Positions 10,577-64,000 of a DNA stretch of 64,000 nucleotides are shown piece after piece. This stretch comes from a virus: the IMG/VR virus record IMGVR_UViG_3300036770_005084, positions 91,232 to 155,231 of that record; one strand, 5' to 3'. Every line of letters begins with the position of its first letter. Within the stretch, counting starts at the first letter, position 1. Both the position numbers and the translations under genes were made by a program. Under the pieces are notes generated by a model that was not told the origin of the DNA, did no database searches, and was given only the letters and a program-made list of their open reading frames with translations.

Positions 10577-10687
10577 TGTATAATATTATACAAAATTACT
10601 TTACTACATAAAATACGTTCATCACATTAGTGACGGAAGTAGGGAAACCGAAGGAACGCACTTTTACAATAGTAAAGGAGCACCCTA
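10577..10687 (+). promoter_or_regulatory. palindrome and structured leader upstream of a DUF4278-like gene
   Basis: A perfect 16-bp palindrome TGTATAATATTATACA lies at 10577-10592 directly after the speD stop and contains a TATAAT on both strands, so it may be a promoter, an operator or both. Downstream, CGTTC (10616-10620) can pair with GAACG (10652-10656), enclosing a small TCAC/GTGA hairpin, which suggests a folded 5' leader. AAAGGAG near 10675-10681 is the RBS. There is no gene in this stretch. Confidence 0.4.
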
Positions 10688-52366: not shown

Positions 52367-53584
52367 ATGCCCAATCCAATAACCAACTTTAGAGATTCTT
52401 TTGGTGTTGATTTAGGTAATAAACTTATTACCAAAGAATACTTAATGACTGTGTATCCACAGATTGCGAGTCAGTTGATTACTCCAGAACTTTGGGTTTG
52501 GGGAAATAACGCTAATGGAAAGTTGGGTAATAATACATCCACAAATAGATCCACTCCAGTCACTACACTCTCAGGTGGAGCAAACTGGAAACAAGTTGCC
52601 TGTGGAGATTTATTTACTTCAGCAATTAAAACTGATGGAACATTATGGACTTGGGGAAGTAGTCAATTTGGGTATTTAGGTGATAATACAACAACCGATA
52701 GATCCACTCCAGTCACTACATTTGCTGGAGGAACCAACTGGAAACAAGTTGATGCAGGAACTCGTAACAATGCAGCAATCAAAACTGATGGAACATTATG
52801 GACTTGGGGAAATAATCTCTATGGATCAATTGGAAACAATACAACAACCGATAGATCCACTCCAGTCACTACATTTGCTGGAGGAACCAACTGGAAACAA
52901 GTTGCTTGTGGTGGATTTCATGTAGCAGCAATTAAAACTGATGGAACTTTATGGACTTGGGGACGTAATTCTGATGGACAACTAGGAAACAATACAATAA
53001 CCAATAGATCCACTCCAGTAACCACATTTGCAGGAGGAACCAACTGGAAACAAGTTTCTGGTGGATATATTCATACGGCAGCAATCAAGACTGATGGAAC
53101 ATTGTGGACTTGGGGAAGTAATAGTTTTGGACGACTGGGAGATAATACAGCAGTCCGAAGATCAATTCCAGTCACCACATTTGCAGGAGGAAACAACTGG
53201 AAACAAGTTGATTGTGGTAGTGGTTCTACATCAGCAATCAAAACTGATGGAACATTATGGAATTGGGGCGATAATTTTTATGGACAACTAGGACACAATA
53301 TAGGAGGTTCTGCAGGTTCTAGATCCACTCCAGTAACCACATTTGCAGGAGGAAACAATTGGAAACAAGTTTCCTGTGGTAGTCATCACATAATATCCAC
53401 GAAAACTGATGGGACTTTATGGACCTGGGGAAGAGGTGATAGTGGTCAATTAGGAACTAATACATCAGTGAATAGATCAACTCCAGTCACAACATTCGCA
53501 GGAGGGACCAACTGGAAACAAGTTTCTGGTGGTGGTGCTTCTACAGTAGCAATAAGAACTTCAGACGATTTACAAGGTATCTAA
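52367..53584 (+). CDS. RCC1-like seven-bladed propeller protein, copy 2
   Basis: A 405-residue paralogue of the propeller at 50507. The N-terminal 40 residues (ITNFRDSFGVDLGNKLITKE) differ and look like an attachment segment. Seven NWKQV blades follow, with TDGTLWTWG repeats in each. DNA of the blades is very similar within the gene and to the other two copies, which would allow recombination between them. It follows the DUF4376-like gene by one base. Confidence 0.85.
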   Translation: MPNPITNFRDSFGVDLGNKLITKEYLMTVYPQIASQLITPELWVWGNNANGKLGNNTSTNRSTPVTTLSGGANWKQVACGDLFTSAIKTDGTLWTWGSSQFGYLGDNTTTDRSTPVTTFAGGTNWKQVDAGTRNNAAIKTDGTLWTWGNNLYGSIGNNTTTDRSTPVTTFAGGTNWKQVACGGFHVAAIKTDGTLWTWGRNSDGQLGNNTITNRSTPVTTFAGGTNWKQVSGGYIHTAAIKTDGTLWTWGSNSFGRLGDNTAVRRSIPVTTFAGGNNWKQVDCGSGSTSAIKTDGTLWNWGDNFYGQLGHNIGGSAGSRSTPVTTFAGGNNWKQVSCGSHHIISTKTDGTLWTWGRGDSGQLGTNTSVNRSTPVTTFAGGTNWKQVSGGGASTVAIRTSDDLQGI

Positions 53585-57872: not shown

Positions 57873-59018
57873 ATGCCTACTTTTTATCACTATACTCAGA
57901 ATGGGTCAAAATATTCCTTTGATGATGTCTTTGTACCTGCTCATGCTTTTAGGCAAGGAAACTTATGGATTTCTGGAAATGGTTGTGGAGACAATACTTC
58001 AATTAGTAGATCCACTCCAGTCACTACATTCGCAGGAGGAGCAAACTGGAAACAAGTTTCTTGTAATTTTATAGATTGTGCAATTAAAACTGATGGAACT
58101 TTATGGGTTTGGAGTGGTATAATACTTGGAACTAATAATACAATTAATAGATCTACACCAGTTACTACATTTGCAGGAGGAACTAATTGGAAACAAGTTT
58201 CTTCTGGATATTATCATACATCAGCAATTAAAACCGATGGGACATTATGGATTTGGGGGGATAATTCGTATGCAATAATTGGAACAAACGATACAAGTAA
58301 TAAATTGACTCCAGTAACTACATTTGCAGGAGGAACCAACTGGAAACAAGTTTCTTGTGGAGGATATCATACAGCAGCAATCAAGACTGATGGAACTTTA
58401 TGGGTGTGGGGAAGAAATAATAGAGGTCAGTTAGGAAAATCTGGAGGAGGAACAGCAAGTACTCCAGTAACTACATTTGCAGGAGGAAATAATTGGAAAC
58501 AAGTTGCTTCTGGATATGAACATATAGCAGCAATCAAGACTGATGGAACTTTATGGACTTGGGGATATAATCCTGGTGGACAACTAGGAGATAACTCAAT
58601 AACTTCTAAAAATACTCCAGTAACAACATTTGCGGGAGGAAATAACTGGAAACAAGTTGCCTGTGGACGCCGACATACTGCAGCAATCAAGACTGATGGA
58701 ACATTATGGATCTGGGGAAGAAATGATACTACTGGAGCTTTAGGAACAAATAATCTAATTAATAGATCTACACCAGTTACTACATTTGCAGGAGGAAATA
58801 ACTGGAAACAAGTTGCTTGCTTTGATAGTACTGCAGCAATCAAGACTGATGGAACTTTATGGGTTTGGGGACGTAATAATAACGGACAATTGGGAATTAA
58901 TAATACAATTAGTAGATCTACACCAGTCACCACATTCATAGGAGGAGCAACCTGGAAACAAGTTGATATCGGACCAACAACCTTTATGGCAACCACATAC
59001 ATAGACGATTATATCTAA
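57873..59018 (+). CDS. RCC1-like seven-bladed propeller protein, copy 3
   Basis: A 381-residue paralogue of the propellers at 50507 and 52367, again with seven WKQV blades. The N-terminus (PTFYHYTQNGSKYSFDDVFV) is unique, and the first blade is reduced. It is embedded inside the modification island, one base after the YkgJ-like gene and 15 nt before the sulfotransferase. This placement ties the propellers to the modification enzymes. Confidence 0.85.
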   Translation: MPTFYHYTQNGSKYSFDDVFVPAHAFRQGNLWISGNGCGDNTSISRSTPVTTFAGGANWKQVSCNFIDCAIKTDGTLWVWSGIILGTNNTINRSTPVTTFAGGTNWKQVSSGYYHTSAIKTDGTLWIWGDNSYAIIGTNDTSNKLTPVTTFAGGTNWKQVSCGGYHTAAIKTDGTLWVWGRNNRGQLGKSGGGTASTPVTTFAGGNNWKQVASGYEHIAAIKTDGTLWTWGYNPGGQLGDNSITSKNTPVTTFAGGNNWKQVACGRRHTAAIKTDGTLWIWGRNDTTGALGTNNLINRSTPVTTFAGGNNWKQVACFDSTAAIKTDGTLWVWGRNNNGQLGINNTISRSTPVTTFIGGATWKQVDIGPTTFMATTYIDDYI

Positions 59019-63066: not shown

Positions 63067-63277
63067 TCAACAAAAGCATCTTGAATCTGCAATTCAAAAT
63101 CAAACTAAACTTATTGAAGAATTTAATAATCTTAATACTGAAATAAGTACAAAAAGAGAACAAATATTAAAATATCAAGGAATTATTGAGTATCTATCTG
63201 AAATCCTTCCTAAAGATATTAAAAAAGAAGAAGGATCTTTAGATACTAATAACTTATCTTCAAACCTGACAGAGTGA
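63053..63277 (+). CDS. small coiled-coil protein (74 aa)
   Basis: A 74-residue coiled coil (LESAIQNQTKLIEEFNNLNT; EQILKYQGIIEYLSEIL) with a polar acidic tail. It overlaps the DUF6165-like gene by 14 nt and is the last gene of the second modification island. ATG at 63053 is followed by another in-frame ATG at 63059, so the start is uncertain by two codons. Function unknown. Confidence 0.65.
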   Translation: MDMTDQQKHLESAIQNQTKLIEEFNNLNTEISTKREQILKYQGIIEYLSEILPKDIKKEEGSLDTNNLSSNLTE

Positions 63278-63306
63278 TCCTACTTATTTTTTAATTACTT
63301 GTCAAG

Positions 63307-63335
63307 TTGACATATAAAATTTAATAGATTATAAT
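63307..63335 (+). promoter_or_regulatory. perfect consensus early promoter
   Basis: TTGACA (63307-63312), 17 nt, TATAAT (63330-63335): a 12/12 sigma70 match with optimal spacing, the best in the window. The predicted transcript starts near 63342, exactly at the foot of the first hairpin of the candidate RNA. Confidence 0.92.
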
Positions 63336-63341
63336 GGTAAA

Positions 63342-63440
63342 GTCTTCAATATCTTTGCGACTTTGAGATATTAAGACCCGTCTAAGGTGGTGGACGGTTT
63401 AACTGGTGGAACATTGGGGGTCTTCTGACCCCTTTTTTTC
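63342..63440 (+). ncRNA. candidate structured small RNA or leader (about 98 nt)
   Basis: Between a perfect promoter and a terminator there is no usable reading frame. There are three hairpins: 63342-63377 (GTCTT then AATATCT pairing with AGATATT and AAGAC, one bulged C, about 13 bp), 63378-63397 (CCGTC/GACGG with a 10-nt loop) and the terminator 63417-63432. The first stem begins at the predicted +1, which would protect the 5' end. It could be a trans-acting phage sRNA or an attenuator for the next gene. Confidence 0.6.
63417..63439 (+). terminator. Rho-independent terminator of the candidate RNA
   Basis: Stem GGGGTC (63417-63422) / GACCCC (63427-63432), TTCT loop, then seven T. Confidence 0.92.
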
Positions 63441-63449
63441 TGCTATGAT
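63441..63449 (+). promoter_or_regulatory. extended -10 promoter for the metalloprotease-like gene
   Basis: TGCTATGAT (TG-N-TATGAT) directly after the terminator, 25 nt upstream of the ATG at 63474. No good -35 is visible. Confidence 0.45.
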
Positions 63450-63473: not shown

Positions 63474-64000
63474 ATGTCCGTTAACCTAGAAGTCAAAGGT
63501 TCTCTTGCCAAATGTCTGGCAACTGAGAATCTGATTATCGAACACAAGAAAGTTCCGACTGCGATGTTCGATGTAGACCGTCGTGTGCTGACTCTTCCTA
63601 CTTGGGATAAAGCATCTGCGACTGTCTATGACCTTCTGGTAGGACACGAAGTTGGACACGCACTGTTCACCGATAATATCGACTGGACTGTAGATTATCC
63701 TGAAGTTCCGAAAGACTTCGTGAATGTTCTTGAGGATGTTCGTGTTGAACGTCTGATGAAGAAAAAGTATCCTGGTCTGTCTCGGACTTTTTACAATGGT
63801 TATAATGAATTGAATTCTGATGATTTCTTTTCAACCAAGGAAGAGAACCTGGATGAACTGACTTTCATTGACAGAATCAATCTTTACTATAAGATTGGAG
63901 CATTTCATAACATTGCTTTCTCTGATGAAGAGAATGAGTTTCTGACTCGTGCAATTCAGACTGAAACTTTTGATGAAGTGTTGCAACTTTCTCGGGAGAT
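63474..64000 (+). CDS. zinc-metalloprotease-like protein (CobT/peptidase-like of cyanophages), 3' end outside the window
   Basis: ATG 63474; the frame is open for 175 codons to the window end. The start MSVNLEVKGSLAKCLATEN is followed by VPTAMFDVDRRVLTLPTWDK and the zinc motif HEVGHALF (residues about 63-70; HExxH), then FVNVLEDVRVERLMKKKYPG (about 88-107), where an ED pair could give the third ligand. This matches the protein called CobT-like or peptidase in cyanophages, often near cobS. Codon use is more GC-rich (CTG, GAC, GTT) than the adjacent island, suggesting a core, well-expressed early gene. Confidence 0.75.
   Translation, partial: MSVNLEVKGSLAKCLATENLIIEHKKVPTAMFDVDRRVLTLPTWDKASATVYDLLVGHEVGHALFTDNIDWTVDYPEVPKDFVNVLEDVRVERLMKKKYPGLSRTFYNGYNELNSDDFFSTKEENLDELTFIDRINLYYKIGAFHNIAFSDEENEFLTRAIQTETFDEVLQLSRE

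Follow-up and report, generated by a model that had tools for sequence, protein, structure and literature searches.

A short structured RNA encoded just upstream of a 'peptidase' gene in a T4-like cyanophage genome represents, in our view, a new family within a known kind of RNA, the phage small RNAs. The structure of this RNA is conserved, with base-pair covariation, among 54 distinct homologous sequences, and the RNA is independent of the neighbouring gene. It has the attributes of a stand-alone small RNA gene: sequence signals for its own promoter and intrinsic terminator around a short transcript, a structure kept by compensatory changes, no conserved reading frame, and no fixed downstream gene. 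We favor, with moderate confidence, the reading that it is a stand-alone early phage small RNA, predicted to act in trans through its loops.

Promoter, fold and parts of the RNA

The stretch of DNA analysed (the window, 64,000 nucleotides) forms the terminal 64 kb of a virus record 155,231 bases long, and its genes are of the T4-like cyanophage type. The features discussed below are listed by window coordinates and strand.

63258-63276, minus: conserved segment CACTCTGTCAGGTTTGAAG, 3' of the minus-strand promoter
63277-63305, minus: divergent sigma70-like promoter, TTGACA-17-TAGGAT, 10/12 (-35 at 63305-63300, -10 at 63282-63277)
63307-63335, plus: sigma70-type promoter of the RNA, TTGACA-17-TATAAT, 12/12
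63342-63439, plus: small RNA, predicted transcript of about 98 nt, from the predicted +1 (G63342) to the terminator; covariance model, 54 distinct homologues
63342-63377, plus: hairpin 1, 13 bp with one bulge, starting at the predicted +1; near-invariant loop segment CUUUGCGACUUUGAG; covariation in model helices 2 and 3
63378-63397, plus: hairpin 2, CCGUC...GACGG with loop GGUGGUG (63386-63392), from fold and covariation
63405-63413, plus: single-stranded GGUGGAACA, linker between hairpin 2 and terminator, holding a second GGUGG
63416-63439, plus: intrinsic terminator, hairpin 3 (63416-63433) and seven T (63433-63439)
63441-63449, plus: extended -10 element TG-C-TATGAT, for the downstream peptidase gene
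63474-63998, plus: downstream 'peptidase' gene, phrog_459 family, ATG at 63474, running off the window

The preliminary description of this DNA had reported a perfect sigma70 promoter followed by three hairpins, and both hold. TTGACA (63307-63312) and TATAAT (63330-63335), separated by a 17-bp spacer, form a sigma70-type site that scores 12/12, a score reached nowhere else in the 64-kb window, where 0.2 such sites would be expected under a Markov-1 model. The usual +1 position places the RNA 5' end at the first paired base of hairpin 1, so that the 13-bp stem, the second hairpin and the terminator with its seven T follow as described. The folding energy of the window RNA is -33.2 kcal/mol (z = -3.3 against dinucleotide shuffles, none of 200 shuffles being as good). 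As the RNA starts within a stem at +1 and closes with a terminator hairpin, it should be stable, and it may also be abundant, as first described. A G-quadruplex in GGUGGUGGACGG was considered and rejected, because 16 of the 54 homologues carry a U-A in place of a C-G pair and thereby lose the fourth GG.

The 'peptidase' gene is a neighbour that lies outside the RNA unit. Its closest annotated relatives are cyanomyovirus 'peptidase' genes, and its assignment to phrog_459 was made through the homologue at locus L085 (E 4e-251). Elsewhere in the window, the product of a gene at 57873-59018 (plus strand) contains repeats of the form 'NWKQV...GTLW.WG', which by eye look RCC1/beta-propeller-like. 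The region around this gene is variable and also holds open reading frames that resemble glycosyltransferases and methyltransferases.

Homologues and base-pair covariation

The RNA is present in 45 of the 80 nearest peptidase loci, which are IMG/VR contigs retrieved with the peptidase protein. Pattern scans of IMG/VR yielded further carriers, including a clearly distinct second type (L298-L301, L304 and L305), for a total of 54 distinct homologous sequences; good copies occur once per genome. The covariance model matches the window RNA at 63340-63441 with 84.7 bits. One carrier is in culture, Synechococcus phage S-SRM01 from Serangoon Reservoir (MW015081; 10975-11081, 59 bits, E 1.5e-12). BLAST searches of 50,697 phage records with the window RNA and with the majority-clade consensus returned no homologue, and the S-SRM01 copy was recovered only with a shorter core query. 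About 20 further cyanophage isolates, most of them from the sea, lack a convincing copy. Weak covariance-model matches in such isolates (E about 1e-3 to 0.1, the best being Sf-FR1 at 33.7 bits) were left uncounted: lacking the hairpin-1 loop or placed at gene ends, they resemble ordinary terminators. A pattern scan of 84,980 cellular genomes (GTDB) gave a single match, L287, which we attribute to chance and rejected as a homologue since the RNA structure is absent.

Compensatory base changes, on whose presence in homologues the preliminary description had staked the RNA beforehand, were found in two alignments. The first, A1, is a plain MAFFT alignment of 46 sequences made without reference to structure, from which RNAalifold derives 18 pairs, seven of them with compensatory change. 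The second, A3, holds all 54 distinct sequences and was fitted to the model structure; its pair counts therefore lean toward the model, but the independent A1 has the same sign. In A3, 92.2% of cells are paired, compared with 81.7% after shuffling, and double changes occur in 19 of 25 pairs (161 double-change cells versus 47.3 shuffled). When pairing partners are slid by one to three columns as a control, the double-change cells fall to 12-26. Hairpin 2 has double changes in all five model pairs, with 99.3% of cells paired, and the terminator has them in all eight of its model pairs; the middle pairs of hairpin 1 are paired in only 69% of cells. In the S-SRM01 type, the hairpin-2 stem is fully rewritten, with CCUCUUC/GAAGAGG for CCGUC/GACGG, and still pairs around a retained GGUGGUG loop.

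The unpaired parts behave in the opposite manner. The hairpin-1 loop segment CUUUGYRNCUUUGAG is near-invariant across homologues, and the GUGG-type loop of hairpin 2 hardly varies, although the L049 type has GGUGAUG. In most homologues the linker or the terminator loop adds a further GGUGG or GUGGUG; in the majority clade, GUGGUG sits in the terminator loop rather than the linker. Base-pair covariation and loop conservation together indicate that the RNA itself is under selection. The promoter geometry is fixed as well: an exact TTGACA, the 17-bp spacer and the same distance from the -10 to the RNA are found in 54 of 54 homologues.

A separate pattern was seen in the promoter spacer. In 16 of the 54 homologues (L012, L036, L047, L058, L071, L075, L078, L080, L104, L113 and others), 10-12 bp of the spacer repeat the 5'-terminal nucleotides of the RNA in inverted orientation and without mismatch, and the repeat and its counterpart co-vary (ACCCTCAAGAC/GTCTTGAGGGT, AACCTCAAGA/TCTTGAGGTT, ACCTTCAAGA/TCTTGAAGGT). 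This palindrome around the -10, not found in the window sequence, could be an operator.

Proposed function and alternative readings

The RNA would most likely be made early in infection by the host RNA polymerase with sigma70, unmodified. This timing follows from the sigma70 consensus together with the view that early cyanomyovirus genes use the unmodified host polymerase (PMC2984593). Given that the three-hairpin shape is kept across dozens of viruses despite changed letters, the RNA very probably does a job early in infection. We infer that it would act in trans through its near-invariant unpaired segments, the CUUUGYRNCUUUGAG loop, the GUGG-type loop of hairpin 2 and the second GGUGG or GUGGUG, and that these would bind a conserved partner, which might be an RNA of host or phage or else an RNA-binding protein.

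The T4 early takeover factors alt, modA, modB, motA and asiA are missing from cyanophages, and the control of cyanophage early and middle transcription has been described as unclear (PMC2984593). The RNA, conserved in dozens of phages with loops that scarcely change and a promoter whose early-type geometry is fixed, is a candidate early effector. A more specific and tentative proposal, which we would put forward as doubtful, is that it is itself a takeover factor made of RNA, disarming or reprogramming a conserved host RNA, RNA-binding protein or RNA polymerase through its loops before phage proteins accumulate. Direct tests of expression and target are feasible, as the carrier S-SRM01 is in culture.

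Complementarity of the RNA to phage translation starts in G000 and S-SRM01 was no better than for shuffled sequences, with the exception of one S-SRM01 gene. The start of this 244-aa gene (89350) has a 14-nt match to hairpin 2 (-21.9 kcal/mol), the best of 417 open reading frame starts. The same start can potentially form a hairpin with loop CACCAC, which could duplex with hairpin 2 of the RNA. We dropped the gene as a family-wide target, since it is absent from the other RNA-bearing genomes searched and since the starts of its homologues in Sf-FR1 and B23 have no such site; it could be a target in a single lineage at most.

One particular form of trans action would be a decoy with CsrB-like logic, whose unpaired GUGG repeats sequester a host or phage RNA-binding protein. 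The presence in most homologues of two unpaired GGUGG/GUGGUG segments, the first in the loop of hairpin 2 and the other in either the linker or the terminator loop, is consistent with such a role, as is the freedom of the stems, but not the loops, to vary. However, there are just two motifs, the second of which shifts position between clades, the L049 type departs from the motif in hairpin 2, a candidate protein is lacking, and the near-invariant hairpin-1 loop is left unexplained. We consider titration of a protein to be improbable.

Alternatively, the RNA could be a riboswitch-like leader or attenuator acting in cis on the peptidase gene, in which hairpins 1 and 2 would sense a signal that lets transcription read through a conditional terminator. 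Attenuators do have this layout, with a terminator behind a structured 5' region. In the main clade, the RNA lies directly 5' of the peptidase gene in most loci, and this strong synteny is what gives a cis role its remaining weight. Some of the RNAs also have an upstream segment able to pair with the 5' arm of the terminator (mean -8.9 versus -6.9 kcal/mol shuffled). Yet antiterminator pairing of either terminator arm with upstream sequence is not consistent among homologues, being absent in L044, L100, L104, L105 and L108, and in nearly every homologue the terminator is stronger than this alternative. The next gene has a separate extended -10, TG-C-TATGAT at 63441-63449 followed by the ATG at 63474, as first described, and -10-like elements precede the peptidase gene also in loci and isolates that lack the RNA. 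The RNA also changes place. It lies 5' of nrdC in S-SRM01, L298, L299, L301 and L304, and 5' of a gene that is neither nrdC nor the peptidase gene in L300 and L305; in S-SRM01, the peptidase gene (at 146701) is more than 100 kb from the RNA, and the relocated units keep their terminator. In L030 and L073, a homing endonuclease gene separates the RNA from the peptidase gene, and in L046, L048, L052, L053 and L056 the RNA 3' end is about 760 bases upstream of that gene. The stand-alone layout proposed in the preliminary description is supported by the conserved terminator, the separate promoter of the next gene, the intervening endonucleases, the move to nrdC and the inconsistent antiterminator pairing. 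These observations, along with erratic reading frames, favor a stand-alone RNA over a leader or a small open reading frame, and we consider control of the peptidase gene in cis to be unlikely.

The third alternative takes hairpins 1 and 2 for a nascent RNA that binds RNA polymerase and carries it through terminators, in the manner of the put RNA of phage HK022. The putL RNA is about 70 nt and forms two stem-loops just 3' of PL, and put RNA counters termination and pausing by binding the zinc-binding domain of the polymerase beta-prime subunit (PMC9378689). Two stem-loops near +1 of an early transcript, predicted in our case, are the shared feature, and the likeness drawn is one of layout; the fixed distance between promoter and hairpin in 54 of 54 homologues is also as expected of a co-transcriptional element. 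Whereas put suppresses downstream termination, the present RNA has a strong terminator within about 20 nt after hairpin 2, maintained by compensatory changes, and the genes downstream have other promoters. We therefore view this reading as very unlikely.

A small protein-coding gene, suggested by conserved GTG and TTG codons within the RNA, or a plain spacer whose strong promoter and terminator may serve as an insulator, is largely refuted and barely credible, since covariation and loop conservation require selection on the RNA, and since frames from internal start codons are erratic in length among homologues (2 to 57 codons from the GTG in the hairpin-2 loop, with a TGA directly after GTG GTG in S-SRM01). 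In accordance with the earlier claim of no usable reading frame, no open reading frame of at least 60 aa overlaps the RNA region (63340-63441) on either strand.

Relation to known RNAs and nearby early-type elements

At gathering score, none of the 4227 families of Rfam 15 matches the RNA region of the window, and a search of this region and six homologous loci at a permissive E-value gave no family match either. The sole Rfam match in the window is a glutamine riboswitch (glnA leader, RF01739) at 10614-10662 (plus strand, 57.8 bits). The present RNA is neither wcaG (RF01761) nor manA (RF01745), the two families with which comparison had been proposed: neither model reaches gathering score in the window, and no match appears at the permissive E-value.

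Phage T4 has two stable small RNAs, C and D, in its tRNA cluster, with no settled function; we liken the present RNA to them by description, as small RNAs of T4-type phages, and claim no link in sequence or context. The wcaG and manA RNAs are likewise structured and come from intergenic regions of T4-like cyanophages, and a cis-regulatory role in 5' UTRs, as candidate riboswitches, is predicted for them (PMC2864571); unlike them, the present RNA ends at a terminator of its own, and the genes after it are served by other promoters. The CfrI RNA of cyanophage S-PM2, also a non-coding RNA of a T4-like cyanophage and from a homing endonuclease region, measures about 225 nt and runs antisense to both psbA and a homing endonuclease gene (PMC2984593), whereas the present RNA is about 98 nt and intergenic, with no opposing open reading frame of at least 60 aa. 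The abiF RNA is a small RNA motif predicted by Rfam in cyanophage S-CREM1 (PMC9964418); abiF is among the Rfam families, all of them, that the present RNA fails to match. It differs from every cyanophage RNA listed by a 2025 review on small RNAs in phages, namely CfrI, abiF, wcaG, manA and glnA (PMC12197685). The main text of the paper describing S-SRM01 mentions neither a non-coding RNA nor a transcriptome (PMC8557907). From the lack of an Rfam 15 match, the difference from the RNAs of the review and the silence of the S-SRM01 paper, we regard the family as new within the literature outside subscription journals; annotation that relies on Rfam 15 does not pick it up.

The divergent minus-strand promoter, on which the preliminary description is silent, stands back to back with the RNA promoter in most, though not all, homologues. 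It is one instance of a recurrent element, a TTGACA-17-TAxxAT early-type promoter directly before a near-invariant transcribed segment, CACTCTGTTAGG(G/T)TTGAAGATAA. This phage has three copies, at 63305-63258 (minus) and, in G000:C1, at 53020-53038 (minus) and 79634-79652 (plus), and the element occurs in more than 100 IMG/VR stretches. At 48 of 69 distinct sites scored, the longer overlapping open reading frame runs antisense to it, and the sites most often read back into the 3' end of a small phrog_471 gene, which uvsW and gene 55 flank in phage ACG-2014g. The element may serve as an early antisense promoter or leader that has been conserved, or as a DNA element of some other sort. The leader on the minus strand (CACTCTGTTAGG...GAAGATAA) was considered as a pairing partner for the hairpin-1 loop and rejected by eye, as the three variable positions of the loop disrupt such pairing.

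Peptidase loci without the RNA were found to hold a different unit in the same place. In L062-L070, L050 and L054, a plus-strand promoter with CACTCTGTTAGGG is followed by a distinct hairpin and a T run, an arrangement that perhaps makes this unit another short early RNA.
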